From Natronomonas salina (GTDB lineage: Archaea; Halobacteriota; Halobacteria; Halobacteriales; Haloarculaceae), in NCBI RefSeq assembly GCF_013391105.1, contig NZ_CP058335.1, forward strand, positions 2,852,001 through 2,916,000: DNA of 64,000 nt, in the 5' to 3' direction. Within the stretch, counting starts at the first letter, position 1; each line of letters opens with the position of its first letter. A model generated the notes under the pieces. That model ran no database searches, was not told where the DNA came from, and saw nothing but the letters and a program-made list of their open reading frames with translations. The translations under genes were made by a program, and so were the position numbers. Positions 7,945 to 55,536 of the stretch are shown here, in pieces.

Positions 7945-8382
7945 TCACTCGAGGTCGAAGGCGTCCGGCGGCTGGCCGGCCTCGTCGAGGACGTCGTCGC
8001 TGACGAGGATGGGGCAGTCCACCCGGAGGGCGACGGCGATGGCGTCGCTGGGCCGGGCGTCGAAGACGACCTTCTCGCGCTCGCCGTCGGCGTAGCGCTC
8101 CGCGTCGATCTTCGCGAGGAACGTGTTCTCCGAGAGGCCGTCGATGCGGACGCGGTCGATGGCGCCGCCGAACTCCGTGAGCATCTCGACGAACAGGTCG
8201 TGGGTCAGCGGCCGCTCGAAGGGGCGGCTCTCGAGCGCGTGGGAGATGGACTTCGCCTGGTCGGCGCTGATGAAGATGGGGACCGCCTCGTCGCGGGCGT
8301 TGAGGACGACGACTGGGGCGCCCTCGTCGCCACCTTCGTCGACGCTGATCCCGAGACCGCGGACGTCCGCCTCGTGTGTCAT
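7945..8382 (-). CDS. Bifunctional nuclease (BFN/DUF151) domain protein
   Basis: 145 residues. The body (PIFISADQAKSISHALESRP, THDLFVEMLTEFGG, ARPSDAIAVALRVDCPILVS) is the BFN/DUF151 domain, described as a nuclease in plants and widespread in prokaryotes. ATG 8382 is preferred; a GTG one codon upstream is possible. A CTTTTGG box about 30 bases upstream supports leaderless initiation. It is divergent from the gene at 8442, leaving a 59-base shared promoter. Confidence 0.88.
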   Translation of the reverse strand: MTHEADVRGLGISVDEGGDEGAPVVVLNARDEAVPIFISADQAKSISHALESRPFERPLTHDLFVEMLTEFGGAIDRVRIDGLSENTFLAKIDAERYADGEREKVVFDARPSDAIAVALRVDCPILVSDDVLDEAGQPPDAFDLE

Positions 8383-8441
8383 CACGTAACACTGGTGGAA
8401 GCTGCACCAAAGCTTTTCGCCCCCAGCGACGACGTCCGGGT

Positions 8442-8726
8442 ATGGGCGACCCCTACGTCGTCGCCGTGAAACCGTCGGCCCGCCGGGTCAGCGGCGCGGC
8501 CGGCGAGTGGGTCGCCGACGAGGGTCGCTTCCGCCGCTTCGACTCGAAGGCGCTGGCCCGCCAGTGGGCCCGCGAGGTGAGCCCGCAGGGCCGGACGCTG
8601 TGGGTCCAGGACGCCCACCCGCTCGACGAGGGGCCGGCCGACGGCTACCTCCTGGCCCGCCGGAGCCGCCTGCGCGGCAACGAGGAGGAGCTGCCGGGCG
8701 ACCAGGTGGCATTCACGGAGCTGTAG
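8442..8726 (+). CDS. Small conserved haloarchaeal protein (94 aa)
   Basis: 94 residues, compact and soluble, with strands and helices suggested by DPYVVAVKPSARRV, RRFDSKALARQWAREVS and GRTLWVQDAHPLD. Unusually for this proteome it contains many Arg residues, which may mean nucleic-acid contact (inference only). CTTTTC at about 8413 is the likely TATA box. It is not assigned to a named family. Confidence 0.65.
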   Translation: MGDPYVVAVKPSARRVSGAAGEWVADEGRFRRFDSKALARQWAREVSPQGRTLWVQDAHPLDEGPADGYLLARRSRLRGNEEELPGDQVAFTEL

Positions 8727-8772
8727 GGGTCCGTCCCCGAATTTTAAGCGGGTCGCCGCGCTCTCCGAGAGT

Positions 8773-9561
8773 ATGGAATCAGTTGGCACGGGACTGGCCG
8801 GCATCGACCGCGACGGCCCGCGGGCGGACGTCTACCTCTCGCGCCCCGAGAAGCGCAACGCGATGACCGAGGACCTGATGCGGGACCTCACGGAGGCCTT
8901 CGAGACCGTCAGCGCGGACGAGGACGTCCGCGCGGTGGCGCTGCTCGGCGAGGGGCCCGTCTTCTGTGCGGGGATGGACCTCCACATGATGCGGAACCGC
9001 GTCGAGGAGGACTCCGAGATCGACCGCGACGTCTTCCCCGGACTGCTCGAGGCCATCGAGACCGCCCGACAGCCGGTCGTCGCGGGCATCAAGACCGCCG
9101 CCCCCGCCGGCGCCTTCGAGCTGACGCTGCCCTGCGACTTCCGGGTCATCGGCAGCGACGCGACCTACGGCGTCATCGAGGTGAAGCTGGGGACGTTCCC
9201 CCACGGCGGCGCGACCCAGCGGCTCCCGCGGCTCGTCGGCCTCTCGAAGGCCAAGGAGCTGGTCCTCACCGGCGAGTTCATCGACCCCGAGGAGGCGCTG
9301 GACTGCGGGCTCGTCCACGAGGTCTGCGACCCCGACGAGGTCGACGACCGGGCGCGGGCGTTCGCCGACCGCCTCTGCGAGAACGCGCCGCTCGGCCTCC
9401 GGAACGCCAAGCAGGCGCTGAACACGGCCCTCGAGACGCCGCTGCAGCAGGGTCTCGAGTACGAGCGGTCGCTCGGTCGCGAACTGGACGACACCCGCGA
9501 CTACCGCGAGGGCTTCGAGGCCCGCATCGAGGAGCGCGACCCGGAGTTCCGCGGGGAGTGA
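8773..9561 (+). CDS. Enoyl-CoA hydratase/isomerase family protein
   Basis: 262 residues with the crotonase fold. GPVFCAGMDLHMM forms the first oxyanion-hole strand; the second region is GAFELTLPCDFRVIGSDATY; KLGTFPHGGATQRLPRLVG is the usual substrate-pocket segment. It probably hydrates or isomerises an acyl-CoA in fatty-acid or amino-acid breakdown. TTTTAAG lies about 28 bases before ATG 8773. A second crotonase is encoded at 30294; they are distinct in sequence. Confidence 0.92.
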   Translation: MESVGTGLAGIDRDGPRADVYLSRPEKRNAMTEDLMRDLTEAFETVSADEDVRAVALLGEGPVFCAGMDLHMMRNRVEEDSEIDRDVFPGLLEAIETARQPVVAGIKTAAPAGAFELTLPCDFRVIGSDATYGVIEVKLGTFPHGGATQRLPRLVGLSKAKELVLTGEFIDPEEALDCGLVHEVCDPDEVDDRARAFADRLCENAPLGLRNAKQALNTALETPLQQGLEYERSLGRELDDTRDYREGFEARIEERDPEFRGE

Positions 9562-9658
9562 CCCGCGCGGAGGCGGGATCACCCCGCCGAGCCCGCTCCG
9601 CGGTTTCGTCGACCGATATGGCCAGAAACCTATTACATGCTCGTCAGAATGTTGTCGT

Positions 9659-10132
9659 ATGCGACTCCGAGCACTCGCCGTCGCGCTCGCCGTGCTGCTG
9701 TCGGTCGGTCTGGCAGCCGCACCGGTGGCCGCGGCAGAGCAGACGAGCGAGGCAGACGCCCAGGAGGTCGTCGAGTTCTACAACCAGAACGTCGATCAGG
9801 TGCCCGACGTCGTCCGCGACCGGTTCGCCGACGAGCGCGTCACCCTGACCGTCGAGCGCGACGGGCAGTCCGACGAAGTCTACACCGCGGTCACCGACGA
9901 CGAGGGCCAGGTCGTCTCCTTCGAGGAGGGCACCCACGACCCCACGATGCGGGTGACGACGGACGAGGCGACCATCCGCGACGTCGCCCAGTCTGAGAAC
10001 CCCCAGAGCGCCGCGATGGACGCCTACCGGTCCGAGCGCGTCGACGTCGAGGGCGTCGGGGTCACGAACACCGTGAAGGTCGAGGCCACGAAGCTCGGCT
10101 ATGAGATCGCCTCGAAGCTCGGCTTGTTCTGA
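9659..10132 (+). CDS. Secreted protein with SCP2-like domain
   Basis: 157 residues with a clear Sec-type signal peptide (LRALAVALAVLLSVGLAAAP, cleavage near VAAAEQ). The mature part has FYNQNVDQVPDVVRDRFADE and a C-terminal region (PTMRVTTDEATIRDVAQSEN, then TNTVKVEATKLGYEIASKLG) that resembles SCP2 sterol-carrier domains, which bind lipids. It would act outside the membrane. TATTAC about 28 bases upstream fits a leaderless start. Confidence 0.7.
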   Translation: MRLRALAVALAVLLSVGLAAAPVAAAEQTSEADAQEVVEFYNQNVDQVPDVVRDRFADERVTLTVERDGQSDEVYTAVTDDEGQVVSFEEGTHDPTMRVTTDEATIRDVAQSENPQSAAMDAYRSERVDVEGVGVTNTVKVEATKLGYEIASKLGLF

Positions 10133-10399
10133 CGGCCAGTAGCGTTCTTCTCCGCGTTCGATTTCGCTCTCAGCCGACGGTCAGCCCTCGCTGACGCTCC
10201 TCGATCGTCGCCCGGAGAACGGCAGGAGCGCCGGGCCATCGGGTCCACGTCGGGGATGGTGGGGATGGGGGGATAGGTGTGATCGACCCGGCGCACCGGC
10301 CCTTTCGACTCGATATTATTAACTCTTTGCAAGCGTAAATAACGCCGTCGGCGTCCCGGAACCCAGGCGTTTTTCTCGCCGGGCGCCGAAGGACCGCCA

Positions 10400-10651
10400 A
10401 TGAGCGACCCAGCGCGGACGGACGACGGCGGGTTCCGCAAGGGACGGAAGGACGCGACCATCATCATCGCGCCGTTCGTCCTCCTCGGGATCGGGAACCT
10501 GCTGCTCATCATGTGGTGGGGGATGGACCCGCTGTGGGGGTTCCTGCTGTTGCCGCCGATCCTCTTCATCTGCGTCATCGGGTGGATCGCCGTCCGCGGC
10601 GGCTTCGCCGAGGACCGCGCCGGGGGCGGCGACTACGAGGGCGGCGTCTAG
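10400..10651 (+). CDS. Small two-pass membrane protein (83 aa)
   Basis: 83 residues: a charged N-terminus, two transmembrane helices (IIIAPFVLLGIGNLLLIMWW and LWGFLLLPPILFICVIGWIA), and a Gly/Asp tail. No named family is recognised. Its stop codon overlaps the stop of the convergent PPOX gene in a shared CTAG (10648-10651). The 267-base stretch before it contains an AT-rich patch (near 10313-10342) but no convincing gene. Confidence 0.75.
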   Translation: MSDPARTDDGGFRKGRKDATIIIAPFVLLGIGNLLLIMWWGMDPLWGFLLLPPILFICVIGWIAVRGGFAEDRAGGGDYEGGV

Positions 10652-11109
10652 CGGACCGGCGCCGGCGCGTACGACTGGTCGCGGGCGACGACCGTCTCCG
10701 GTTCGACGCGGACCAGCAGCGCGGTGTCGGTCGGCTGGGCGACGTACTCCGAGAACCGCGGGTCCCAGTCCTCGCGGTCGGGCCCGAGGTAGCGCGCCAG
10801 CAGGCGCTCGGCCAGCGTCGGGTCGAAGGGCTCGACGCTGCCCGCCCCGCGGATGCCGACGTGCTGGACGAGGCCGCGCTCGGCGTCGAAGTCGACGACG
10901 CCGAGCGCGCAGGCCGGTTCGCGTTCGATGCGGGACGGGAACGTGTCCGTCGCGGCGTCCCCGAGGATCCAGGCCGCCTCGTCCTCCCAGAGGTACCAGA
11001 CCGGCGACTCCCGGGGTCCCTCGGGGGCCCGCGTCGCCAGGTGGCCGAACAGCGGCCGCGAGAGGAACGCCTCGAGGCTGGGCCCGAGGCTGTTCTCGAC
11101 GATCTCCAT
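10648..11109 (-). CDS. Pyridoxamine 5'-phosphate oxidase-like (PPOX) flavin protein
   Basis: 153 residues of split-barrel FMN-binding type: FLSRPLFGHLATRAPEGPRE, PVWYLWEDEAAWILG, a SRIEREPACALGVVDFD segment and a C-terminal dimer-type region. Haloarchaea carry many such proteins; they may reduce flavins, F420 or other cofactors, so no reaction is assigned. It is convergent with the small membrane protein and upstream of the tRNA on the same strand. Confidence 0.85.
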   Translation of the reverse strand: MEIVENSLGPSLEAFLSRPLFGHLATRAPEGPRESPVWYLWEDEAAWILGDAATDTFPSRIEREPACALGVVDFDAERGLVQHVGIRGAGSVEPFDPTLAERLLARYLGPDREDWDPRFSEYVAQPTDTALLVRVEPETVVARDQSYAPAPVR

Positions 11110-11248
11110 GGCCGAACCCCGACGGGGGCGAGCAAGAAGGTGGCGATATTTGCGGGTACTGGTGGGGACTAGCACGCCTGCAGCGGGGTTACGAATTGAT
11201 CGGCCCCTGGCCGGCGATTGCGCTACGGGTACGCTTCGAGTTGGAGAA

Positions 11249-11333
11249 CGCCGAGGAGGAGATTTGAACTCCTGAGTCCGTGAGGACAGTTGCTCTCGAA
11301 GCAACCGCCTTGGCCGGGCTAGGCTACCTCGGC
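11249..11333 (-). tRNA. tRNA-Ser (anticodon CGA)
   Basis: Read on the minus strand, a 7-bp acceptor stem (GCCGAGG with CCTCGGC) encloses a D arm, an anticodon arm GTTGC-TTCGAGA-GCAAC with anticodon CGA, a long variable arm with a GTCC/GGAC stem, and a T arm GGAGTTCAAATCTCC. The discriminator base is G, usual for archaeal tRNA-Ser, and CCA is not encoded. No intron is visible. An upstream box (CATAAAG near 11360) could be the promoter. Confidence 0.95.
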
Positions 11334-11496
11334 TCACTCGGACGTGGGACGGTTTCGACTTTATGGGTTTCGGTCTACCGGAACGACGGCGAGGGTCGCG
11401 CGGTCGCTCTCGAACGCGGCCGGGCAGTGCCGGCGGGGTCGCGTCCGATGCGTCGGCGTGGGAAGAACAAAGGGGATTGCCACCCTCTGACACGAC

Positions 11497-11949
11497 ATGA
11501 CGCTGCTCGTCCCGTACGACGGTTCGGAGCTCTCGGAAGCGGCCCTGCAACGCGCCACGCAGTTCGGCGAGGCGTTCGACCAGGAGGTCGTCGTCCTGGT
11601 CGTGGTCCCCACGGACGAGGACTACGTCCGCGAACGCGGCCTCGTCGACGAGGGCGAGGAGTACGACTCCGAGCTCTTCGCCCTCGAGCTCCGCGACGAG
11701 GCCGAGAAGATCGCCCCCGACGCGACGTTCCGGAGCGAGCGTGCGACCGACCCCGAGGACGAGCCGTACGCCTCCACGACGATGAACATCGTCCGGACCA
11801 TCCGGCAGGTCGCCGGCGAGCTCGACGCCGAGATCGTCTTCCTCGGCAGCGAGAACGCCGCCAGCGTCTCACAGCCGCTCTCGAGCATCGGCGCGCCGGT
11901 CTCGAACGACCCCCGCTACGACGTCCACATCGTCAGGCACCCCGACTAG
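11497..11949 (+). CDS. UspA-like universal stress protein (ATP motif absent)
   Basis: 150 residues with the UspA start LLVPYDGSELSEAALQRATQ and a VVVLVVVPTDEDY strand. The C-terminal Gly-x2-Gly-x9-Gly-Ser nucleotide motif of ATP-binding Usp proteins is not preserved (FLGSENAASVSQPLSSIGAP), so ATP binding is doubtful. It overlaps the next usp gene tail-to-tail by 17 bases. First of three usp genes within 1.4 kb. Confidence 0.88.
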   Translation: MTLLVPYDGSELSEAALQRATQFGEAFDQEVVVLVVVPTDEDYVRERGLVDEGEEYDSELFALELRDEAEKIAPDATFRSERATDPEDEPYASTTMNIVRTIRQVAGELDAEIVFLGSENAASVSQPLSSIGAPVSNDPRYDVHIVRHPD

Positions 11950-21961: not shown

Positions 21962-23566
21962 TCACTCGAAGTCCTCCAGCTCGAACTTCTGGACCTTGCC
22001 GGTCGTCGTCCGCGGCAGTTCGTCGACGAAGTTCACCGTCCGGGGGTGCTTGTACGCCGCGAGGTTGTCGAGGCAGTACTGCTTGATCTCCTCTTCGGTC
22101 ACGTCGACGTCGGGCTGGGTGACGACGAAGGCGGTGACGGTCTCGCCGCGGCGCTCGTCGGGGACGCCCACGACGGCGGCGTCGGCGACGTCGGGGTGCT
22201 CGAAGAGCAGCTCCTCGACCTCGCGGGGGTAGATGTTGTAGCCGCCGCTGACGATCATGTGCTTCTCGCGGTCGACGATGTAGAAGAAGCCGTCCTCGTC
22301 GTAGTAGCCGAGGTCGCCGGAGTGGAACCAGCGCTTGCCGTCTCTCGAGTCGCTCCGCTCCTCGCTCGACCCGTCCGAGGCGCCTTGCGCCTCGCGGTCC
22401 TCGTACGTGAACGACTCCTCGTTGGCCTCCGGGCGCTCGTAGTACTCCTTCATCACGTTCGGGCCGTGGATGACGATCTCGCCGACGACCTCGTCGAGTT
22501 CGGTCTCGTCGTCGACGGGGCCCTCCGGGACCGGTTCGACCTCCTCGAAGTTGTGGTCGACGACCTTCGACTCGACGCCGGGCAGCGGCTTGCCGATCGA
22601 GCCCGCCCGGCGGTCGTCGGGGCGGTTCGCGTGGGTGACCGGCGCCGTCTCCGTGAGGCCGTACCCCTCCAGCAGCTTCGGCTCGTAGAGCTCCTCGAAG
22701 CGCCGCATGACCTCCAGCGGCAGACTCGACCCGCCGGCGTTGGCGAACCGGACCGTCTCGAGGCTGTACTCGTCGGCGTCCGGCTGGTTGACGACGTCGT
22801 TGAACATCGCGGGGACGCCGTGGACGATGGTCATGCCCTCCGACTCGATGAGCTCGAGGGCCTCCGTGGCGTCCCACTCGGGCAGCGGCCAGAAGCTCCC
22901 GCCCTCGTAGAGGGTCGCCAGCATCGTCACCGTCATCCCGTAGATGTGGAACAGCGGGAGGACGCCGAGGACCTTGTCCTCGCGGTTCATGCCGTCGTGG
23001 ATCTTCGGGGAGGCCCGCGCCTCGAAGGCGAGGTTGCCGTGCGTGAGGAGGACGCCCTTCGGCGTGCCGGTCGTCCCCGAGGTGTACGGCTGGCAGGCGA
23101 CGTCGTCGTCGTCACGGTCGACGACGTCGAGTTCGCCGTCGGCGAGGAAGTCGTCGAACTCGGTGGCGCCCTCGGCGTCGCCGACGCTGACGACGGTGTG
23201 GACGTCCGTGTCGTCCTGGACCTCCCGGACCTGCGGGACGAGGTCGGCCAGCGCGACGACCGCGACGGCGCCGGAGTCGCCGAGCAGGTGCTCGATCTCC
23301 CGGGACTTGTACTGGGGGTTCATCGGGACCACGATGCCGCCCGCCCGCAGGATGCCGTGGAACGCGACGACGTACTGCGGGAGGTTCGGCAGGTAGATCC
23401 CGACGCGGTCGCCGGGTTCGACGCCGGCGTCCGCGAGCGCCTGCGCGAAGCGGCCCGCCTGCGACCAGAACTCCTCGTAGGTTATCTCCCGACCGCGGTA
23501 GCCGATCGCCGTCGCGTCGGGCGACGCCGCGGCGGTCTCTCCGATATCCGTGACGAGATTCGTCAT
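21962..23566 (-). CDS. AMP-forming acyl-CoA ligase
   Basis: 534 residues. ANL-superfamily motifs are in order: YTSGTTGTPKGVLLTHGNLA, LEGYGLTETAPVTHANRP, FHSGDLGYYDEDGFFYIVDR, and the C-terminal lysine motif TTGKVQKFELEDF. It activates a carboxylic acid, probably a medium- or long-chain fatty acid, as acyl-AMP and transfers it to CoA. Between FTYEDREAQG and GKRWFHSGD lies a low-complexity insert (ASDGSSEERSDSRD) coded by a palindromic repeat; it sits in a loop before the hinge and need not abolish activity. It is last in a same-strand run with the repeat proteins but probably unrelated to them. Confidence 0.93.
   Translation of the reverse strand: MTNLVTDIGETAAASPDATAIGYRGREITYEEFWSQAGRFAQALADAGVEPGDRVGIYLPNLPQYVVAFHGILRAGGIVVPMNPQYKSREIEHLLGDSGAVAVVALADLVPQVREVQDDTDVHTVVSVGDAEGATEFDDFLADGELDVVDRDDDDVACQPYTSGTTGTPKGVLLTHGNLAFEARASPKIHDGMNREDKVLGVLPLFHIYGMTVTMLATLYEGGSFWPLPEWDATEALELIESEGMTIVHGVPAMFNDVVNQPDADEYSLETVRFANAGGSSLPLEVMRRFEELYEPKLLEGYGLTETAPVTHANRPDDRRAGSIGKPLPGVESKVVDHNFEEVEPVPEGPVDDETELDEVVGEIVIHGPNVMKEYYERPEANEESFTYEDREAQGASDGSSEERSDSRDGKRWFHSGDLGYYDEDGFFYIVDREKHMIVSGGYNIYPREVEELLFEHPDVADAAVVGVPDERRGETVTAFVVTQPDVDVTEEEIKQYCLDNLAAYKHPRTVNFVDELPRTTTGKVQKFELEDFE
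22377..22393. repeat. Palindrome GAGGCGC-N3-GCGCCTC inside the ligase gene
   Basis: Same 7-bp inverted repeat as at 7672-7688, here on the opposite strand but coding in frame for a similar Arg/Ala/Ser/Asp/Glu-rich peptide. Flanking bases (CGGACG after the palindrome, then GAGCG units) also match, which points to a mobile or copied miniature element. Confidence 0.8.
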
Positions 23567-23663
23567 CGTCCGTACGTCCCGGCGAAAAAGGGTAAACGTT
23601 GCTTACCAGGAGAGACCGTCGAAACCCGTTCAACGGTCCAACTGGGTTTCAATTCACGTCAGA

Positions 23664-24977
23664 TCAGACCACGTAGCAGCCGGGGCCGGTGGTGAACTGG
23701 TTGCTGTAGTTCTCCTGGCTGTCCGTGTCGCCGCCCTCGCCGGCGGACGTCCCGGAGTCGCCGCCACCGCCGGAGTTCGACATGTCGTTGCCGCCCTCGA
23801 CGGGGACGACCGCCGAGTTGTTGCTGTCCGCCTGGTGCTGGCGGTTGGTGTCGCTATCTTCGCCGTTGCCGCCCTTCTTGACGTCCTGGTTGCGCTGGCT
23901 GTTCGTGTCGCCGCCGTCGCCGGCGGTGGTGTTGTCGCTGCCGAGCGAGCCGGCGAGCGAGTGACCGTTCAGCAGCAGCGCGGAGACGACGTCGCTGTCG
24001 CCGTTGGACTGCTGGCTCTGCTGGCTCGACTGCCCGCCGCAGTCGCCGCCGTTGGTCTGCCAGTTCTCGTTGTACTGGGTGCCGGTGTCGCCGCCGTCGC
24101 CGGCGTGGGTGTCGCTGCTGCCGATGGCGAGGGCACCGGAGTTGCCGTTGCCCGCGGCGGCGTCGACGACGTCGTTGTCGCTATTGGACTGCTGGCTCTG
24201 CTGGTTGGCGTCGCTGTCCGAACACTCGCTGCCCTGCGCGTTGTCGTTCTCCTGGTTGCCGGTGTCGCCGCCGTCGCCGGCGTACGTGTCCTCGCTCAGG
24301 AGCGCGACGGCCAGCGAGTTGCCGTTCAGCAGGTCGACGTCGGCGACGTCGTTGTCGCTGTTGGACTGCTGGCTCTGCTGGTTGGAGTCGCCCTCGCGCT
24401 GGTTGTACTGGCCGTTGTCGTTCTCCTGGTTCCCGGAGTCGCCGCCGTCGTCGCCGTGGGTCCCGTTCCCGCCGACGGCGATGACGACCGAGTTGCCGTT
24501 GAGCGCGTCGGCGTCGACGGCGTCGTTGTCGCTGTTGGACTGCTGGCTCTGCTGGTTGGAGTCGCCCTCCTCGCTGCCGTCGACGTCGTCCTCGTCGTTC
24601 GTCCGGTTGTCGTCGACGGTGGGCGACTCGAGCGTCAGGTTCTGGTCGCCGAGGCCGATGGTCACTGAGTTCCCGGAGCCGACGTTGGGGTCGACCGGGT
24701 CGTCCTCGACGTTCTCCTGGGTGTTGGACTGGTCGGCACCGTCGTCGCCGTCCTTGTCCTTCGACCCGTCCTGATCGCCGGCCGAGTCGTCGCCCGTCGT
24801 CCCGAGGGTCTCGCTACCCGACGTCGTCGCGTCCTCGAGCGACGCATCGTCCAGTTGCGCGTCCTGTTCCTCGCCGTCGGTATCGGTCAGCCCGACGCCC
24901 GCCACCGGCGTCGCGAGGACGCCGACGATGGTGAACACCGTGACTGCGATTACCAGTACGTTACGTTTGTTGTTCAT
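23664..24977 (-). CDS. Secreted Asn/Gln/Ser-rich repeat protein (paralogue A)
   Basis: 437 residues from ATG 24977 (MNNKRNVLVIAVTVFTIVGV), a Sec-type signal peptide ending near residue 28. An acidic linker leads to a unit shared with paralogue B (QENVEDDPVDPN, NLTLESPTVDDN). Five repeats then begin near residues 139, 197, 256, 315 and 376; each has NQQSQQSNSDND, a hydrophobic segment after NGNS, and DGGDTxxQxN. The last is degenerate and ends GPGCYVV. Three Cys (about 252, 313, 434) are absent from the equivalent repeats of B. The pattern suggests a stacked β-solenoid or amyloid-like surface fibre (inference). Upstream element at 25026. Confidence 0.8.
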   Translation of the reverse strand: MNNKRNVLVIAVTVFTIVGVLATPVAGVGLTDTDGEEQDAQLDDASLEDATTSGSETLGTTGDDSAGDQDGSKDKDGDDGADQSNTQENVEDDPVDPNVGSGNSVTIGLGDQNLTLESPTVDDNRTNDEDDVDGSEEGDSNQQSQQSNSDNDAVDADALNGNSVVIAVGGNGTHGDDGGDSGNQENDNGQYNQREGDSNQQSQQSNSDNDVADVDLLNGNSLAVALLSEDTYAGDGGDTGNQENDNAQGSECSDSDANQQSQQSNSDNDVVDAAAGNGNSGALAIGSSDTHAGDGGDTGTQYNENWQTNGGDCGGQSSQQSQQSNGDSDVVSALLLNGHSLAGSLGSDNTTAGDGGDTNSQRNQDVKKGGNGEDSDTNRQHQADSNNSAVVPVEGGNDMSNSGGGGDSGTSAGEGGDTDSQENYSNQFTTGPGCYVV

Positions 24978-25025
24978 GTGGCAAGTATCCACCAGCTTAT
25001 CGGTTATCCCATCAAAAAGGGGTTA

Positions 25026-25042
25026 TCTAGGTTCTCTCGAAA
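25026..25042 (-). promoter_or_regulatory. Shared 17-bp element upstream of paralogue A
   Basis: TCTAGGTTCTCTCGAAA on the plus strand, ending 48 bases before the ATG at 24977. The identical 17-mer stands at the same distance (49 bases) before paralogue B (26919-26935), just upstream of CTTTTTG/CTTTTGT TATA-like sequences in both. This is the position expected for an activator or BRE-adjacent site. Confidence 0.7.
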
Positions 25043-25124
25043 CCCGATCGAACTGATCTCGGAGCAAGAGCGAAGCGCGGCGGAGCGGCCCGGAACGGAC
25101 TTCAGCAGGTGGAATCACTTGCGT

Positions 25125-25156
25125 CCCAGCGCTAATCGTCTCATCGGAGCGCTGGG
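25125..25156. terminator. 9-bp stem hairpin downstream of paralogue B
   Basis: CCCAGCGCT (25125-25133) and AGCGCTGGG (25148-25156) can pair perfectly with a 14-base loop. It is 3' of paralogue B and 5' of paralogue A, so it may separate the two transcripts or regulate read-through. No T-tract follows directly, so termination is not certain. Confidence 0.45.
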
Positions 25157-25249
25157 TAGACACGGGGCTACGGATCCAGATGCAGGCGCTCGACCGTTTC
25201 GGCTCGGTCGAAAGAAGGAACCGCGAAAGCCGCTGTGAAGTCGTCGGTG

Positions 25250-25268
25250 CCCGTCGACTGTCGACGGG
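25250..25268. terminator. Short GC hairpin just after paralogue B stop
   Basis: CCCGTCGA-CTG-TCGACGGG forms an 8-bp stem with a 3-base loop, 38 bases after the stop codon of paralogue B. It may stabilise the 3' end of the mRNA or contribute to termination; no poly-T run is adjacent. Confidence 0.4.
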
Positions 25269-25306
25269 TGATCTGGTGGTCCGAAGGACCGGACCGCCCG
25301 TCGGGA

Positions 25307-26869
25307 TCAGTTCCCGATGGACTGTTCGTTGGTGTTGTTCTGGACGTTGCTGTCGCCGCCGTCGCCTGCGGAGCCGGAACCGCCTTCGACCTCCTGGTCG
25401 TTGAGTGCCTCGACGGGCACGACAGTGTCGTCGCTGTCCTGGTCCTGGCTCTGCGAGTTGGTGTCGTCGCCGCCGGACTGCTCGTTGCTGTTGGACTGGG
25501 TGTTGGTGTCGCCACCGTCGCCGGCGGTGTTGTTCTCGCCGCCGAGTCCGATCGCGGCGCTGTCACCGTTCAGCAGGCTCGCGCGGACGACGTCCGTGTT
25601 GACGTTGGACTGCTGACTCTGCTGGTTGGCGTCGCCGTCACCGCCGCTGGACTGCTCGTTGCTGTTGGACTGGGTGTCCGTGTCGCCACCGTCACCGGAA
25701 GACGTGTCGCTGCTGCCGATGGCGATGTTGCCGGAGTTGCCGTTAGCCGCGGCGGCCTCGACGACGTCGTTGTCGCTGTTGGACTGCTGGCTCTGCTGGT
25801 TGGAGTCGCCGCTGCCGTCGCTGGACTGGCTGTTCGAGTTCTCCTGGTTACCGGTGTCGCCACCGTCGCCCGTGGAGACGTTGTCGCTGAGGACCGTGAC
25901 AGCCAGGGCGTTGCCGTTCAGCAGGTCACCGTTCACGACGTCGTTGTCGCTGTTGGACTGCTGGCTCTGCTGGTTGGAGTCGCCGCTGTTGCCGCTGGAC
26001 TGCTCGTTGCTGTTCTCCTGGTTGCCGGAGTCGCCACCGTCGCCGCCGTTAGAACCGCTGGCGCCGACGCCGACGAGGATCGAGTTACCGTTGATCGCGT
26101 CGAGGTCTGCGGCGTCGTTGTCGCTGTTGGACTGCTGGTTCTGCTGGTTGGAGTCACCGCCCGAGCCGCTCTCGGAGTCGGTGTTCGACTGGTTACCGTC
26201 GATGGTGGGTGACTCGAGGGTCAGGTTCTCGCTACCGAGCGCGACGGTCACGGAGTTCCCGGAGAGGAGGTTCGGGTCGACGGGATCGTCGTCCAGGTTC
26301 TCCTGGGAGTTCGACTGGGTGACGTCGTCGCCACCGTTGTCGCCGTCACCCTTGTCGCCGTCACCGTTGTCACCGGTGCCGTCGTCACCGTCGCCGTTGT
26401 CACCGGTACCGTCGTCACCGTCACCGTCGCCGTTATCGCCGGAGCCGTCGTCGCCGTCACCGGTACCGTCGTCACCGTCGCCGTCGCCGTTATCGCCGGT
26501 GCCGTCGTCACCGTCGTCACCAGTTCCATCATCGCCGGTGCCGTCGTCGCCGTCACCGGTACCGTCGTCACCGTCGCCGTCACCGTCCTTGTCCTTCTCG
26601 CCGTCCTGATCGCCGGTACCGTCGTCGCCGTCACCGGTACCGTCGTCGCTATCGTTGCTGCCGTCGTCGCACTCGCAATCGCCGTCTCCGGCCGTGCCAG
26701 CCGTGGCGGCGGTGCTGGATGCGCCGCCGTCATCTTCGAGCTGTTCGTCGCCCGATTCGTTCGTGTCTTCCGTCAGTGCGATGCCGATTCCTGTCACCGG
26801 GGCTGCCAGCATCCCGATGACCGTGGCCGCTGCAATCGCGAGTACCAGTAGGCCTTGTCGTTGGTTCAT
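25307..26869 (-). CDS. Secreted Asn/Gln/Ser-rich repeat protein (paralogue B)
   Basis: 520 residues from ATG 26869 (MNQRQGLLVLAIAAATVIGM), with a Sec signal peptide ending near residue 28. Residues 61-182 are an extreme low-complexity tract of Gly, Asp, Thr and Asn (DDGTGDGDDGTGD type), possibly a flexible or Ca2+-binding spacer. The shared unit follows (QENLDDDPVDPNLLSGNSVT, NLTLESPTIDGN). Five repeats begin at about 239, 297, 355, 413 and 469 (58-residue period); each contains NQQSQQSNSDND, NGN(S/A), DGGD(S/T) and QxNSNxQ. Only two Cys (65, 67) occur, both in the spacer. Probably an extracellular fibre or matrix protein; function not known. Confidence 0.8.
   Translation of the reverse strand: MNQRQGLLVLAIAAATVIGMLAAPVTGIGIALTEDTNESGDEQLEDDGGASSTAATAGTAGDGDCECDDGSNDSDDGTGDGDDGTGDQDGEKDKDGDGDGDDGTGDGDDGTGDDGTGDDGDDGTGDNGDGDGDDGTGDGDDGSGDNGDGDGDDGTGDNGDGDDGTGDNGDGDKGDGDNGGDDVTQSNSQENLDDDPVDPNLLSGNSVTVALGSENLTLESPTIDGNQSNTDSESGSGGDSNQQNQQSNSDNDAADLDAINGNSILVGVGASGSNGGDGGDSGNQENSNEQSSGNSGDSNQQSQQSNSDNDVVNGDLLNGNALAVTVLSDNVSTGDGGDTGNQENSNSQSSDGSGDSNQQSQQSNSDNDVVEAAAANGNSGNIAIGSSDTSSGDGGDTDTQSNSNEQSSGGDGDANQQSQQSNVNTDVVRASLLNGDSAAIGLGGENNTAGDGGDTNTQSNSNEQSGGDDTNSQSQDQDSDDTVVPVEALNDQEVEGGSGSAGDGGDSNVQNNTNEQSIGN
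26324..26689 (-). repeat. Gly-Asp low-complexity coding tract
   Basis: About 366 bases made of short GTCGTCACC/GCCGTC-type units in many imperfect copies encode residues 61-182 of paralogue B. Tracts like this expand and contract by slippage, so length may vary among strains. Confidence 0.8.
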
Positions 26870-26918
26870 GTGGGAGATAGTCCATTCGATTCTGCGTATA
26901 TCTGACAAAAGTGATTTC

Positions 26919-26935
26919 TCTAGGTTCTCTCGAAA
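26919..26935 (-). promoter_or_regulatory. Shared 17-bp element upstream of paralogue B
   Basis: Identical to 25026-25042 (TCTAGGTTCTCTCGAAA) at nearly the same distance from the start codon. The leader ends of both genes are also alike (GGAxxxTxxCCACATG type). The next gene upstream, the transmembrane regulator, lacks a copy before its own start. Confidence 0.7.
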
Positions 26936-26998
26936 AACTCTCTCGCCCGCCGTCCGATAACGGGCATGGCTACTGTTAGATTACAGCTGCCAGAAGCG

Positions 26999-28846
26999 TC
27001 AGTCGTCGGCGACGCTGCCCTGGAGCGCGGACTTGGTGGCGCGCCGCAGGCGGATGCGGACCGAGCCGCCGTCGCGTTCCCGCGAGACGAGGCCGTCCTC
27101 CTCCAGGCGGTCGAGGTGGTAGGAGACGGTGCTCGGGGCGCAGCCGACGGCGTCGGCCACGGCCGAGAGCGTCGTCGGTTCCCGGCGCTCGATGGCCGAG
27201 AGGACGTCCGACGCCGCGGAGTCGGCCATCGCCGCCGCGAGCTCGGGGTCGTCGTCGTCCATCGACACGGGGTAGAGCCGCTGGCGGCCGCGAAGCTTGC
27301 GGCGCTCGAGGAGCCCCTCGTCGGCCAGGATGCGGCAGTGATACCGGACCGTCTCGACGGTGACGTCGGTCTCCTCCGCCAGTTGCGCGTAGTAGATCCC
27401 CGGCGATTCCTCGACCAGCTCGAAGATCTGCGCCCGCGTATCGTTCTCCAGCGGGTCCGAGCTATCGTGTCGACTGTACCCGAACACCGGCGGGAGGATC
27501 CGGTCGGACAGCCCGCCGACGTGCGAGGCGATCGAGTGCTTGAGCGTCCCCAGCAGTCCCGGCTGCCCCATCGAGGCCAGCATGGCCGTCTGGTTCATCG
27601 CCACTCGACCGCCGCCGAGGTAACCGACGAGCACCAGCAGCGCGGCTCCCTCGCCGGGACCACCTGCGGGCGCTTCCCCGCCGTCGTCGCCCGAGTCGGC
27701 ACCGGCCGTATCGTTTTCGTCGGATCGCTCGTCGTCGCCGTCGTCGCTCGCAGCGAGCGGAATCGAACTGTCGCGCGCGCCCGTCTGGTCCTCGTTGCTG
27801 CCGGTCTTCTTCTCCGCAGCCCCCTCGTTTCCAGTGGCGGTCGATGGCTGTTGGTCGTCGTCTTCGACCGGGGAGCCCGCGATTATGGACACGACTTTCG
27901 AGACGACGACGCTCTCCGACTCCAGCGATGTGACCAGCCGCTCGATCCCGGCGGTGGCGCTACGGTCGCCGTCCCCGTCGACGAACGCCGACAGTTCGTC
28001 GAACCGCTCGGCTTCGAGCGTCCCATCCAGCCCGTCGTCTACGATCCGCTCGAGGCCCGACGACGGACGTGTCTCGGCATCGTCGTCGACGTCGCGATCA
28101 GTCGTCCAATCGTTCATCTCGCCCCTCGTCAGGCCCGTGTCGTTGGTGGCGTTGCCGGTCAGGTCCGCCGTGACGTTCGTCGTCACGTCGCCCACGCCGA
28201 GGACGATGTCGGTCACGTCGTCGAGGAGGAACTCGTCTAGCGTCCCGTTGACGCTGGTCGTCGAGTTTCCTGTCTCGTTACCGGCGTCGGTTCCGTTCTC
28301 CTCCCCGTCCGATGACCCGTTGACCCATCCCTCGCCGGCGTCCGCATCACTGTCGTTGTCGCTCGAGTTCTCGCCGTCGGATTCCGTGTCGCTCTCGTTG
28401 CGACCTTCGGAGTTCCACACCTCCCCGTCGGAGTCCGAACTCTCGTTATCTGATTCGTTCTCGCGCTGCTCGCCCCAGCGATGGTCGTCGTCGGAATCGT
28501 CGCCCCACCCATCGTCGTCCGATTCGTTGTCGCTGTGGCCACCCCATCCGTCCTCGTCGTCCGACTCGTTGTCGTCGCTCTCCCCGTCCCCGTCGTCCGA
28601 ATCAGCTCCGTCTTCGCCAGTCTCCCCGTCGGCCGTTTCGGTTTCGGTCCCCTCGCGCGTATCGCTTCCATCGTCGGAGTCCTGTTGAATCAGCCCGTCC
28701 GTCAGGTTCTCCTGGATTAGTCCGTCCGAGTCGGCTCCGTGGAACGTCGTTCCCGATCCGTCGCCGGCCAGCGCCGGCTGGGCGCCGACCAGCGACACGC
28801 CGAGACAGCAGACGAGGAGGACGGCGAGGAGTTCACGGTGGACCAT
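26999..28846 (-). CDS. Transmembrane one-component regulator with acidic ectodomain and two winged helices
   Basis: 615 residues. A Sec signal peptide (1-27, ALLVCC-type core, AQPALA cut site) is followed by a roughly 350-residue acidic, Asn-rich ectodomain with many Asn-x-Ser/Thr glycosylation sequons. One membrane helix (about 400-420, AALLVLVGYLGGG) leads to a conserved VAMNQTAMLASMGQPGLLGT linker. Two cytoplasmic winged helices follow: about 469-515 (ETVRYHCRILADEGLLERRK) and about 546-600 (APSTVSYHLDRLEEDGLVSR). The membrane-linked wHTH half is a known haloarchaeal type; the long ectodomain is unusual. Being just upstream of both repeat genes, it may sense the surface and control them (inference). 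Confidence 0.85.
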   Translation of the reverse strand: MVHRELLAVLLVCCLGVSLVGAQPALAGDGSGTTFHGADSDGLIQENLTDGLIQQDSDDGSDTREGTETETADGETGEDGADSDDGDGESDDNESDDEDGWGGHSDNESDDDGWGDDSDDDHRWGEQRENESDNESSDSDGEVWNSEGRNESDTESDGENSSDNDSDADAGEGWVNGSSDGEENGTDAGNETGNSTTSVNGTLDEFLLDDVTDIVLGVGDVTTNVTADLTGNATNDTGLTRGEMNDWTTDRDVDDDAETRPSSGLERIVDDGLDGTLEAERFDELSAFVDGDGDRSATAGIERLVTSLESESVVVSKVVSIIAGSPVEDDDQQPSTATGNEGAAEKKTGSNEDQTGARDSSIPLAASDDGDDERSDENDTAGADSGDDGGEAPAGGPGEGAALLVLVGYLGGGRVAMNQTAMLASMGQPGLLGTLKHSIASHVGGLSDRILPPVFGYSRHDSSDPLENDTRAQIFELVEESPGIYYAQLAEETDVTVETVRYHCRILADEGLLERRKLRGRQRLYPVSMDDDDPELAAAMADSAASDVLSAIERREPTTLSAVADAVGCAPSTVSYHLDRLEEDGLVSRERDGGSVRIRLRRATKSALQGSVADD

Positions 28847-28980: not shown

Positions 28981-30195
28981 ATGGTCCGGCCGCCGACTCG
29001 GGTCGAGAACGCCGCCCTCCTCTCGCTCGGCGGGCTGGGATACGGAGCGCTGCTGTTCGTCTGGTTCGCGCTGCCCGCGTCGCTCCAGCCCATCATCGAC
29101 GAACTCGGGCTGACGGGGACGCAGGCCGGCATCCTGGCCGGCGCGGTCCCGCTGACGTACATCCCCATCGGCCTGGCCAGCGGCCTGGTCGTCGACCGCC
29201 TCGGCGCGCGGGTCGGCGTCGGCGCGGGCGTCGCGCTCGCGGGCGTCGCACAGGTCGGCCGCGCCTACGCCCCCGGGTTCGCCTCGATGCTCGCGCTCAC
29301 GCTGGTACTGGGCGTCGGCGCGACGGGCATCACATTCGGGATGCCGAAGCTCGCCTCCGAACTGTACCCCTCCGACCGGGTCGGGCGAGCGGCGTCGGTC
29401 TACCTGATCGGTTCCTACGCCGGCAGCGCGAGCGTCTTCGCGACCGGGCGGTCGATCCTCGTGCCGGCGCTTGGCGGCTGGCGGCCCCTCTTCCTCGCGA
29501 GCGGCCTCGGGACGCTCGGGGTCGCCGCCGTCTGGGCCGCCGCCGCGTGGCACGTCCCGCCCGGGAGCCACGAGACGGACGACCAGGGGACCTTCTCGCT
29601 GGCCTCGCTGACCGACGACCTCCGGGCGGTCCTCGGGCACCGCGACCTCCGGCTGCTCGTCCTCCTGGGGACGATGTACCTGTTCGTCCTCCACGGGACC
29701 CAGGGCTGGCTCGTCACGATCCTCGAGCGGCGGGGCGTCGACCCCGGCCTCGCGGGCTCGGTCACCAGCCTGCTCGTCGTCGGCCAGACCGCCGGCGTCC
29801 TGGCGGTCCCGGTCGTCGCCGAGCGGCTCGACCGCAAGCGCGAGTCGCTCGTCGTCTGCGGCGTGCTCTCGAGCCTCGGCGCGGTCGGGCTGCTCGCCGA
29901 GCCCGCGGTGGTCTTGCTGCTAGTCGTCCCCGTCGTGCTCGTCGGGTTCGGGATGGGCGGCCTCTCGCCGCTCATCCGGGCCATCCCGGTCGAACTGGAC
30001 GGGATCGGCCCCGGCCTCACCGGAACGGCGGTGGGGATGATCTTCGCCGTCGGCGAGATCGGCGGCTTCCTCGGGCCGGTCGTCATCGGCGCGCTGCGGG
30101 ACGCCACCGGCTCGTTCACGCCGGGCCTGCTGTTCGTCGCGGTCGGCGCGCTCGTCGCCGCCGGCGCCGGGGCGGCGATGTCGGAACTGGACTGA
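28981..30195 (+). CDS. Major facilitator superfamily transporter
   Basis: 404 residues, 12 membrane helices. The loop between helices 2 and 3 has GLVVDRLGARVGVGAGVALA (the MFS A-motif DRxGxR variant), and the mid-protein loop (HETDDQGTFSLASLTDDLRA) divides the halves. The substrate is not predictable; the family includes cyanate/nitrate and drug exporters. It is divergent from the transmembrane regulator (134 bases), with an AT-rich CTTTTAATC in between. Confidence 0.9.
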   Translation: MVRPPTRVENAALLSLGGLGYGALLFVWFALPASLQPIIDELGLTGTQAGILAGAVPLTYIPIGLASGLVVDRLGARVGVGAGVALAGVAQVGRAYAPGFASMLALTLVLGVGATGITFGMPKLASELYPSDRVGRAASVYLIGSYAGSASVFATGRSILVPALGGWRPLFLASGLGTLGVAAVWAAAAWHVPPGSHETDDQGTFSLASLTDDLRAVLGHRDLRLLVLLGTMYLFVLHGTQGWLVTILERRGVDPGLAGSVTSLLVVGQTAGVLAVPVVAERLDRKRESLVVCGVLSSLGAVGLLAEPAVVLLLVVPVVLVGFGMGGLSPLIRAIPVELDGIGPGLTGTAVGMIFAVGEIGGFLGPVVIGALRDATGSFTPGLLFVAVGALVAAGAGAAMSELD

Positions 30196-49493: not shown

Positions 49494-49652
49494 ACCTACT
49501 GATAGGGTCAGGAGCCACAAAAAGAGCGGTCGCCCGGCAGTCGCGGCCGCCTCCCGACGGTTTATCCACGGGGACGCGCGGTCCGGGCCGTCGCGCGACT
49601 GTTGGACGGTTTTGTCAGAACCGGTATTTCGGGGGCGTGCTTCCGCCGACCC

Positions 49653-51971
49653 ATGCGACTCGACCGACGAACGTTCGTGAAGGGTGCGGGCGTGGCCGCC
49701 GGGGCGGCGCTGACGCCCGGGACGGCCGCGGGGCTCATCGACGACGGCATCGACACCGACGGAGGACTCCAGGAGGTCATCGTCGTCTTCGAGGACAACG
49801 ACGATGTCGACGTCCTCGAACGGTTCGACCTCGCCGACGGCTACTACCGGTTCCAGGTGCTGCCCTTCGGCTACACCAGGGCGACCGGCGACCAGATCGA
49901 GCGCATCGCCGCGCTGGACTCGGTCCGGTACGTCGAGAAGAACCGCGAACTGGAGTACCACAACGACGACGCCCGGGAGCTGACAGGCGCCGCGGCGGCC
50001 CAGGAGGACCTCGTCGAGACCGGCGCGGGCGCCCACACGGTCGTCATCGACTCCGGCGTCGACGGCTACCACCCCGACCTGCAGCCGAACCTCCGGAACA
50101 ACTTCCGGTACGTCAACCCGCTGTCGGACGCCGAGGACACGATGTGGGTCGACGTCGGCGCCGGCGACTCCGACGACATCGGCCACGGGACGCACTGCTC
50201 GGGGTCGGTCGCCGGCATCGGCCAGCAGTCCGACGGCCAGTACGCCGGGATGGCCCCCGACGCCGATCTCACGGTCTACTCGGCCGGGCTGACCGTCTAC
50301 ATCCTGAAGATCGCGGGTGCGGTCGACGACATGATCGCGCGCAAGCGGAACGGCGAGTTGGACGTCCAGGTCGTCTCGAACTCCTACGGGCTCGACAACG
50401 ACCACGACTTCAACCCGGTCAGCGCCAGCAACCTCGCGATGTGGGAGGCCTTCGCCTCGGGCATCCTCCCGGTGTTCTCGGCCAGCAACTCCGGCCCCGA
50501 CCACGGGACGCTCAACTACGCGGCGAAGGCGCCGTACGTCCTCGGCGTCGCCGCCACCTTCGACGGCGACTTCGGCCCCGCGAAGCGGCCGACCGACTTC
50601 TCCTCGCGCGGTCGCCCGCCGGCCGACGAGCGGGGCGCGGGCTACGCCGCCGACTACGAGACCGCTTACGACGACAACGAGGGCGCCCACTACGACCGGC
50701 GGCGGGCGCTGCGCAACGTCCGGCGGTTCCACCGCTCCGGGCAGGGCGACGTCGCGGAGGTCGATGCCGACTACGAGACCTCCATCAGCGGGACCGTCAG
50801 CTACGGCGTCGACCCCGCCTACGAGGACCCGATCCAGGACCCCAACTACTTCGAGTGGCAGTCGCCGCCCGGCGCCGGCTACCTGGAGGCGACGGTCACG
50901 TGGCAGCCGCAGGGCCAGGCCATCCAGGTGAAGGTCCACAGGGATAGCGAGGAGGGCACGGTGATCGCCACCGGCAGCGAACTCGTCAACGACGGTGAGT
51001 TCACCTTCGATGCCCCCATCGACGGCGACCGGACCTACGTCTTCGAGGTCGTCGGTGAGTACAACGTCCAGTCGCAGTTCACGATGGAGCTGACGGCCCT
51101 CGAGACGGAGCCGTCGGCGCCGGAGGGACCGTTCGGCATCTACCGGGTCGGCGTCGGCGCTCCCGGAAACGCCGTCATGTCCACGGAGACCCACACGGAC
51201 GTCCTGAAGTACACCGGTCCGACCTACGGGGGCGACGACGGCACCGACCCCTGGTACGGCTCGCTGTCCGGCACCTCGATGTCGTGTCCCGTGACGTCGG
51301 GCATCTGTACGCTCGTGAACGCGGCGTACCGCCGCGAGGCGGGGCACTTCCCGAAACCAATCGACGTCCTCAACATCGTCGAGGCGACGGCCGAGGGCGG
51401 CACCGGCGAGGAACTGGCCGGCCACACCGAGGCGAACATGGGCGCCGGCTTCGTCGACGCGGCGGCCGCCGTCGAACGCGCCCGGGAACTCGGCCGACGG
51501 GCCGGTTCCCGGGGTGACGACGAGACGAAGTCCGACCACCCCCAGCTGTGGAACGCCGTCGACCTCTGCGACCACGGTCGCGGCGTCGCCGTCCCCGACG
51601 TGCAGGGCAACCGGGCCGACGACGGCTCCGTCTTCACGGCCGGCCAGGTGAACCACGTCGAGTTCACGCTCACCGACGCCACCCACCGGCTCTCGCGGGT
51701 CCGCGACGCGATCCCGGCGAGCTGGGAGGTGGTCGCCGGGGACCACGCGGAGGTCGTCGAGGTGTTCGACGCCAAGTACGTCTACTTCGACGTCGACTAC
51801 CATGGCGAGGGCGAGACGACCTTCGGCTACATCGTCGAGGCCCCCTCGGAGACCGGCCAGTACGGCTTCGGGCCCGCGGAGGCCATCGCCGAGGACGGCG
51901 AGTCCTTCGTGCCCATCCCGGACACCGAGGACACGAACGCGGTCGTCGGCCAGGAGCAACCCGACCTCTGA
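49653..51971 (+). CDS. Halolysin-like subtilase with inserted β domain
   Basis: 772 residues from ATG 49653. RLDRRTFVKGAGVAAGAALT is a Tat signal. After a pro-region, the S8 triad is Asp133 (VIDSGVDGYHPDL), His178 (DIGHGTHCSG) and Ser541 (SGTSMSCPVTSGI), with oxyanion Asn278. Between Asn278 and Ser541 about 260 residues stand where most subtilases have fewer than 100; residues about 325-485 (SISGTVSYGVDPAYEDP, ATVTWQPQGQAIQVKVHRDS) look like a PPC-type β sandwich nested in the catalytic domain. A second β region follows the catalytic domain (about 640-750). Secreted protease of an active, salt-adapted type. Confidence 0.9.
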   Translation: MRLDRRTFVKGAGVAAGAALTPGTAAGLIDDGIDTDGGLQEVIVVFEDNDDVDVLERFDLADGYYRFQVLPFGYTRATGDQIERIAALDSVRYVEKNRELEYHNDDARELTGAAAAQEDLVETGAGAHTVVIDSGVDGYHPDLQPNLRNNFRYVNPLSDAEDTMWVDVGAGDSDDIGHGTHCSGSVAGIGQQSDGQYAGMAPDADLTVYSAGLTVYILKIAGAVDDMIARKRNGELDVQVVSNSYGLDNDHDFNPVSASNLAMWEAFASGILPVFSASNSGPDHGTLNYAAKAPYVLGVAATFDGDFGPAKRPTDFSSRGRPPADERGAGYAADYETAYDDNEGAHYDRRRALRNVRRFHRSGQGDVAEVDADYETSISGTVSYGVDPAYEDPIQDPNYFEWQSPPGAGYLEATVTWQPQGQAIQVKVHRDSEEGTVIATGSELVNDGEFTFDAPIDGDRTYVFEVVGEYNVQSQFTMELTALETEPSAPEGPFGIYRVGVGAPGNAVMSTETHTDVLKYTGPTYGGDDGTDPWYGSLSGTSMSCPVTSGICTLVNAAYRREAGHFPKPIDVLNIVEATAEGGTGEELAGHTEANMGAGFVDAAAAVERARELGRRAGSRGDDETKSDHPQLWNAVDLCDHGRGVAVPDVQGNRADDGSVFTAGQVNHVEFTLTDATHRLSRVRDAIPASWEVVAGDHAEVVEVFDAKYVYFDVDYHGEGETTFGYIVEAPSETGQYGFGPAEAIAEDGESFVPIPDTEDTNAVVGQEQPDL

Positions 51972-53971: not shown

Positions 53972-55348
53972 ATGAACATCGCTTTCGCCCTGCTCGTCGA
54001 GACGGCCGCAGCGATCGGCGTCGCGTCGACGCTTCGAGCACTCCCCGCGGTCGCGGCCATCGGCGGCGACCTCTTCGGCTGGTGGGAGTGGCGACTGCTG
54101 TTGATCCCGCCGATCACCGGCATCATCGGGTACATCACCAACTACGTCGCCATCTACATGCTGTTCCACCCGCTGCGGTTCAAGGGGTTCGACGTCCCCG
54201 GCATGGAGAAGCTGACCGTGAACTCGCCGTACCGCATCCGGCAGATACCGGGAATGCTGGAGGGCCGCGTCGGCTGGCAGGGTATCATCCCCTCGAAGGC
54301 CCGTAAGATGGGCAGCATCAACGTCGACACGGCGATCGGGAAGATCACCACGCAGACCGAGATCTTCCAGGAACTCGACCCCGACCTCCTGGCCGACCAC
54401 ATCTACGAGTCCGCGGGCGACGACATCAAGGAGATGGTCGTCGAGACGATCCGCGAGCAGAACCCCGAGCTGTGGGACGACGCCCCCGAGCAGGTCCACG
54501 ACGCGGTCCGCTCGCAGGTGGACGACCAGCTCCCGGAGATCATCCAGCACATCACCGAGCACATCGGCGAGCACGTCGACGAGCTGTTCGACACGAAGAT
54601 GATGGTCATCGAGCACCTCGACGAGCACCCCGAACACGTCAACGAGATCTTCCTGGAGACCGGCGACAAGGAGTTCGACTTCATCGTCAACTCTGGGTTC
54701 TACTTCGGCACGCTGCTCGGCATCTTCTCCATCCCCGCGTACGTCATCATCGGTTCCTGGTGGGTCCTGCCGCTGTTCGGCGTCTTCGTCGGCTATACGA
54801 CCAACTGGCTGGCGCTGAAGATGATCTTCCGGCCGCTGCAGCGTCACGATATCGGGCCGTTCACGCTGCAGGGCATCTTCCTGCGACGGCAGGACGTCGC
54901 CAGCGAGACGTACGCCGAGATCGTCGCCCGGGAGATCATCACCCTCGAGAACATCGCCGACAACCTCATGTACGGGCCGAATTCCGACCGCACCCGACAG
55001 CTGATCAGGGAGGACCTCCGCGAGTCAATCGACGACATGTTCGGGGCGGACTCGCCGGTCGTCCGGGTCCTCGGCGGCACCGAGGAGTACGAGGCCGTCC
55101 GGGACGAAGTCGCGGAGAACGGCGTCGAGTACGCGGTCTCGCCGCTCCAGGAGCCCGAGATAAACGAGGCGCGGCGGAGCGCCATCGAGCGGTTGCTCGC
55201 CAGTCGGATGAAGGAGCTCCCGCCGGACGAGTTCGCGCACATGCTGCGGTCGGCGTTCAAGGAGGACGAGTGGCTGCTCATCGCCTGCGGGGCCGCGCTG
55301 GGGTTCGTCGCCGGCTGGATCCAGTTGCTCGTCGTGACCACGGTGTGA
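53972..55348 (+). CDS. DUF445 membrane protein, paralogue 1
   Basis: 458 residues. A membrane hairpin near residues 35-65 (RLLLIPPITGIIGYITNYVA) is followed by GWQGIIPSKARKMGSINVD and a long amphipathic region, another pair of helices near 240-290 (WWVLPLFGVFVGYTTNWLAL) and a C-terminal helix (GAALGFVAGWIQLLVVTTV). The duplicated P(I/L)xGxxxGYxTNxxA motif is the DUF445/YheB signature. The role is unknown; bacterial members localise to the envelope. It is the first of three tandem copies, each with its own promoter. Confidence 0.92.
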   Translation: MNIAFALLVETAAAIGVASTLRALPAVAAIGGDLFGWWEWRLLLIPPITGIIGYITNYVAIYMLFHPLRFKGFDVPGMEKLTVNSPYRIRQIPGMLEGRVGWQGIIPSKARKMGSINVDTAIGKITTQTEIFQELDPDLLADHIYESAGDDIKEMVVETIREQNPELWDDAPEQVHDAVRSQVDDQLPEIIQHITEHIGEHVDELFDTKMMVIEHLDEHPEHVNEIFLETGDKEFDFIVNSGFYFGTLLGIFSIPAYVIIGSWWVLPLFGVFVGYTTNWLALKMIFRPLQRHDIGPFTLQGIFLRRQDVASETYAEIVAREIITLENIADNLMYGPNSDRTRQLIREDLRESIDDMFGADSPVVRVLGGTEEYEAVRDEVAENGVEYAVSPLQEPEINEARRSAIERLLASRMKELPPDEFAHMLRSAFKEDEWLLIACGAALGFVAGWIQLLVVTTV

Positions 55349-55386
55349 CCCGCGGCGTCGCGTCACCTCGACGCTAGCCGATGGAG

Positions 55387-55400
55387 CTTGCAAATGCAAG
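55387..55400. promoter_or_regulatory. Inverted repeat CTTGCA-AA-TGCAAG
   Basis: A perfect 6-bp inverted repeat with a two-base centre, 30 bases before the promoter element of DUF445 paralogue 2 and 39 bases after the stop of paralogue 1. It may be an operator for the second gene or a structure at the end of the first transcript; not found before paralogues 1 or 3. Confidence 0.45.
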
Positions 55401-55429
55401 TGCCTAGGCGCCGTATAACTCCTGGATGG

Positions 55430-55446
55430 CTGTAAAAAGTTAAATC
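55430..55446 (+). promoter_or_regulatory. Promoter element of DUF445 paralogue 2
   Basis: CTGTAAAAAGTTAAATC, identical to the copy before paralogue 3. The start codon is 90 bases away, implying a 5' leader of about 65-70 nt. Confidence 0.8.
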
Positions 55447-55536
55447 GGATTATGTGATACGTGTACACAGGACCCGTCGTGTCGTCCCGGGCCGTTCCGC
55501 GTCCCGAACCGACCCCCAGAACACCCTCATGTTCAG

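Follow-up and report, generated by a model that had tools for sequence, protein, structure and literature searches.

A three-gene cassette in a variable chromosomal slot

The window that we analysed is a stretch of 64 000 nucleotides, bases 2852001-2916000 of the complete 3.75 Mb chromosome of Natronomonas salina. On its minus strand we find three consecutive genes, in the order of transcription a regulator gene (26999-28846), a gene for a secreted repeat protein, here called A (25307-26869), and a gene for a second one, B (23664-24977), with intergenic gaps of 129 nt (regulator-A) and 329 nt (A-B). The initial annotation had described two adjacent same-strand genes for secreted repeat proteins with a co-oriented regulator gene upstream; its coordinates are right and the open reading frames match. 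For A the start was taken as ATG, a longer open reading frame starting with TTG being less likely.

The cassette is bordered by genes for an acyl-CoA synthetase (21962-23566) and an MFS transporter (28981-30195), and these bracket the same slot in four congeners. The slots of the congeners carry unrelated genes, typically those of a KaiC-like ATPase and a PAS histidine kinase (8000-11600 in locus L126, 4700-11500 in L127, 6200-11800 in L128 and 1200-6800 in L131); three of the four also carry a gene for an MBL-fold protein. Since the four congeners fill the same slot with other genes, the slot is variable and the regulator-A-B cassette within it is specific to this genome. A close copy of the displaced KaiC-like protein was not found elsewhere in the N. 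salina genome. We found no support for a virus or plasmid origin of the cassette: the repeats were not found in viral contigs by a pattern search, nor in plasmids and phages by tblastn, the repeat proteins have no PHROG match, and no tRNA gene adjoins the cassette (tRNA genes lie at 11249 and 35242 of the window).

The open reading frames of the cassette and their Pfam matches include no toxin domain, immunity-like gene or protease, and the cassette holds neither an assembly or export factor nor Csg machinery. Gene B is followed by a terminator-like hairpin with a T tract (23591-23607, minus strand), which is a match to a consensus only, the number of such sites across the region being near the shuffle mean. 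Two other groups of genes in the window may be mentioned: a Tat-signal S8 subtilase of 789 a.a. is encoded 20 kb from the cassette (49602-51971), and three tandem genes, apparently paralogues, encode proteins of 452-458 a.a. with about four predicted membrane helices each (53972-58573).

The upstream regions of A and B contain identical copies of a 17-nt element, TTTCGAGAGAACCTAGA, on the minus strand at 26919-26935 (66 nt before the ATG of A) and at 25026-25042 (65 nt before the ATG of B). The 14-nt core of this element has no further copy in the genome, even when one mismatch is allowed, and the element is absent from the regulator's own upstream region. Around the element only about half of the positions are identical between the two upstream regions. 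It is a possible operator or promoter element; the upstream identity may be partly inherited, because A and B are paralogues (see below). A TTC-N4-GAA dyad within it was set aside as too short to argue from.

Two secreted proteins built of 58-residue units

A (520 a.a.) and B (437 a.a.) each begin with a Sec-type signal peptide, and neither sequence shows a C-terminal anchor. In A an Asp/Gly/Thr-rich stalk of ∼120 residues precedes the repeat units (25310-26329, minus strand); B has a shorter, acidic linker (units at 23685-24743, minus strand). The initial annotation counted five units of ∼58 residues in each protein. Its period and length hold, and five is a fair count: our unit profile matches 12 units, six per protein, of which about four are clear and the first and last of each protein are degenerate. 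The best self-match of A, at a lag of 58 residues, reaches 45% identity, whereas 500 shuffles gave at most 20% at any tested lag; the period is not due to chance. A and B are paralogues and share 64% identity when aligned unit by unit.

The units have the consensus GDSNQQSQQSNSDNDVVDxxxLNGNSxxxxxGSxxTxAGDGGDTGNQxNxNxQS. Aromatic residues, Lys, His, Cys and Met are all absent from the repeat part of A. The two proteins have net charges of -75 and -114, and N-glycosylation sequons are slightly below expectation in both. Between matching units, the columns of the motif core have a pN of 0.06 versus a pS of 0.22, which shows purifying selection on the core and a genuine reading frame; the values for the other columns are 0.34 and 0.29. 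At a lag of 2, Asn/Gln residues follow one another with twice the expected frequency, with no such excess at lags 1 or 3, a pattern that fits beta-strands with one Gln/Asn face. Together, the alternating Gln/Asn residues and the purifying selection on the core appear compatible with the stacking of beta-strands. AlphaFold2 models of units 2-6 (two alignment rows) and of three units (five rows) gave strands only and were unusable (pLDDT 38.7 and 37.2); such low-confidence models neither support nor refute a solenoid, as disorder would look the same. We rejected membership of the curlin (CsgA-type) family: the repeat proteins have no Pfam curlin match at E-values up to 10 and lack the motif Sx5QxGx2NxAx3Q.

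The repeats were found in one genome only. Full-length protein queries found no second genome with them among 146 genomes of the family, and the unit profile found no homologue outside N. salina in 142 family genomes (E-values up to 10), in 392 genomes of the order or among 393 genomes of the phylum, where the best outside score was that of a single fragment (E-value 0.006, locus L232). A pattern search of genome contigs likewise revealed no second genome, and PDB sequences gave no match to the repeats. Marginal profile matches (loci L107-L112, L114, L116, L122 and L010-L012) turned out on reading to be unrelated soluble or membrane proteins or Asp/Pro-rich linkers. Homologues may have escaped these searches, since each species is represented by a single genome in the collections and distant relatives may be masked by low-complexity filtering.

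A family of ectodomain-first regulators and its neighbours

The regulator has 615 a.a. and starts with a signal peptide or helix of hydropathy 2.18. An acidic ectodomain follows (residues ∼29-395; 27662-28762, minus strand, as are all features of this gene), with 17 N-glycosylation sequons where 3.9 are expected (none of 2000 shuffles had as many). Near the C-terminus are two winged helices, HTH_HVO_0163_N (residues 468-531; 27254-27445; Pfam E-value 3e-14) and an HTH_20/ArsR-like domain (residues 540-588; 27083-27229; E-value 1e-19). Signal peptide, ectodomain and winged helices are thus as the initial annotation had them. The single membrane helix that it also named is predicted at residues ∼399-418 (27593-27652) and is weak by hydropathy (1.25), yet in the family alignment it lines up with clearer helices of relatives.

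The regulator's family is widespread in Halobacteria, with members in 102 of 392 genomes of the order (E-values up to 1e-30) and five in the N. salina genome; the cassette regulator itself forms a long branch with no firmly placed sister. In the family a membrane helix and, in most members, a juxtamembrane motif YSRxDxSDPLE precede the winged helices. The ectodomains of 52 non-redundant members contain 331 sequons versus 122 expected (2.7-fold; 48 of the 52 are above expectation). No such enrichment is seen in the cytosolic ends of the same proteins (19 versus 19.7 expected) or in 189 soluble open reading frames of the same loci, which served as a control (174 versus 196 expected). Because sequons are enriched in the ectodomains and flat in the cytosolic ends and soluble proteins, a topology with the N-terminal part outside and the winged helices inside is well supported for the family.

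Genes next to these regulators tend to encode secreted proteins. By a crude signal-peptide rule, 22 of the 102 genes flanking the 52 non-redundant regulators look secreted, compared with 49 out of 470 further away (odds ratio 2.4, p = 0.004). Subtilases, identified by homology, occupy 10 of the 102 flanking positions and 1 of 386 positions at least three genes away (p = 1e-6). These p-values are optimistic, as the loci share ancestry. The next most common secreted neighbours are PGF-CTERM-like surface proteins (four) and acidic low-complexity proteins (four). The tendency is not universal, since the regulators of Natrialbales adjoin a housekeeping gene such as that of MutS.

Regulators lie directly beside genes of secreted S8 subtilases in loci L062, L071, L072, L073, L076-L080 and L146. 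Both tandem and divergent pairs occur, and for two of the subtilases the S8 domain and a Tat signal were confirmed by Pfam. This adjacency may represent a more general regulator-protease system. Other related regulators adjoin genes for secreted proteins that end in long low-complexity stretches of Ala/Asp/Ser/Glu (5658-6674 in L090, 3466-4665 in L144, 4158-5036 in L153 and 4891-5838 in L093); these proteins may be the functional counterparts of A and B.

Proposed function and comparison with known systems

We propose that the regulator is a membrane one-component transcription factor whose acidic N-terminal part is extracellular and probably glycosylated and whose tandem winged helices are cytosolic. 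It would most likely sense the state of the cell envelope or the surroundings, and would set the expression of A and B, up or down, through the shared 17-nt promoter element, presumably by binding DNA there. A and B would leave the cell by the Sec route. Their units would carry beta-strands, a Gln/Asn face alternating with a Val/Ala/Leu face and Asp-Gly turns between the strands, and would probably stack, or assemble by themselves, to form a fibre or matrix layer outside the cell. The sequon-rich ectodomains of the family, and the signal peptides, units, lag-2 periodicity and conserved core of the repeat proteins speak for this reading, as does a precedent: ArnR and ArnR1 are archaeal membrane-bound winged-helix proteins that control surface structures (PMC6396743). 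The surface-state sensor controlling its neighbours that the initial annotation had suggested is plausible from the enrichment of secreted neighbours (subtilases among them) and from the unique element before both repeat genes, and we lean towards control of the adjacent repeat genes by the regulator. Assembly of A and B into a fibre or matrix layer is a more tentative proposal, somewhat short of probable, and the whole chain, from sensing of the outside to expression of the regulator's own self-assembling secreted proteins, we consider just short of probable. Several observations count against it: the uninformative structure models, the weak membrane helix of the regulator, the cassette's lack of an assembly or export factor, the possible inheritance of the 17-nt element by the paralogues and the housekeeping neighbours in Natrialbales. 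The regulator-repeat pair, moreover, is not a system shared by several genomes in our searches, and co-occurrence is silent on this exact pairing because the repeats were found in one genome only. The broadest version, an undescribed archaeal system for an extracellular fibre or matrix in which orphan Gln/Asn-ladder repeats are switched by one member of a family of envelope sensors, each governing a neighbouring secreted protein (a protease, a PGF-CTERM protein, an acidic protein or a repeat protein), seems to us doubtful.

The chief alternative keeps the control by the regulator and replaces the fibre: A and B would be soluble, largely disordered, acidic surface proteins, brush-like or mucin-like, for hydration, ion binding or shielding. 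Their charge, the Asp/Gly/Thr stalk, the absence of aromatic residues from the repeat part of A, pLDDT values below 40 and the acidic low-complexity secreted proteins next to related regulators are all in its favour. The strict 58-residue register, the selection on the core motif and the Asn/Gln alternation, however, exceed what a disordered brush needs, and sequons slightly under expectation are unlike a mucin, so we regard the brush as rather unlikely, though to be taken seriously. It is improbable that the three genes are chance neighbours in a variable slot and that the regulator controls something else. The slot does vary between congeners, the repeats do occur in one genome and many regulators of the family do adjoin housekeeping genes, but the three co-oriented genes fill the slot exactly, secreted neighbours are enriched across the family, and both repeat genes carry the same unique 17-nt element. 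Finally, the lineage-specific distribution of the repeat proteins would be explained if they were agents of microbial conflict, secreted antagonists or decoys; lineage-specific secreted proteins of archaeal 'dark matter' islands have been proposed to act in conflict (PMC4158269), and in the variable columns of the units pN equals or exceeds pS. Against this, neither a toxin domain nor a protease nor an immunity-like gene is present in the cassette, and we consider the explanation very improbable.

Among known systems, A and B resemble curli CsgA in being secreted tandem-repeat proteins rich in Gln/Asn/Ser/Gly with alternating polar residues, and differ in their acidic 58-residue units and in the lack of curlin motif, Pfam match and accompanying Csg machinery. 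The sheath protein SH of Methanospirillum, compared by its description, is likewise an archaeal secreted protein, one that forms an external layer of amyloid-like beta-arches; no tandem 58-residue repeat is described for it (PMC10593813), and no sequence relation to A and B was noticed. Amyloid dyes stain Haloferax biofilms, and the protein behind the staining was only a guess when this was reported (PMC4180959). An archaeal fibre is therefore possible in principle, and the A/B pair offers a concrete candidate type for the protein behind such staining in haloarchaea.

The initial annotation did not recognise the system as described. Membrane one-component regulators are, however, a described class: transmembrane transcription regulators (TTRs), surveyed in PMC10269533, combine a DNA-binding domain and a membrane helix in one chain and are presumed to signal directly from the outside to DNA. 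The cassette regulator has a predicted DNA-binding domain and at least one membrane region, the features by which TTRs are recognised, and would act on transcription from the membrane; it differs in domain order, with signal peptide and ectodomain first and tandem winged helices last. In ToxR-type TTRs the DNA-binding domain comes first. ArnR and ArnR1 of Sulfolobus, also archaeal membrane-bound helix-turn-helix one-component regulators, have an N-terminal HTH, a HAMP-like part and two C-terminal membrane helices, and their targets are the archaellum and pili instead of secreted repeat proteins (PMC6396743); with its domain order reversed, the cassette regulator is not of the ArnR type. A further likeness is within the family: haloarchaeal regulators beside subtilases (L062, L073, L076-L080 and L146) also adjoin a secreted-protein gene, here that of an S8 protease and not of a repeat protein. 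The family offers a testable model of how haloarchaea couple the cell's outside directly to transcription without a kinase. What sets it apart from the described membrane one-component regulators is that the ectodomain comes first and the winged helices are in tandem.
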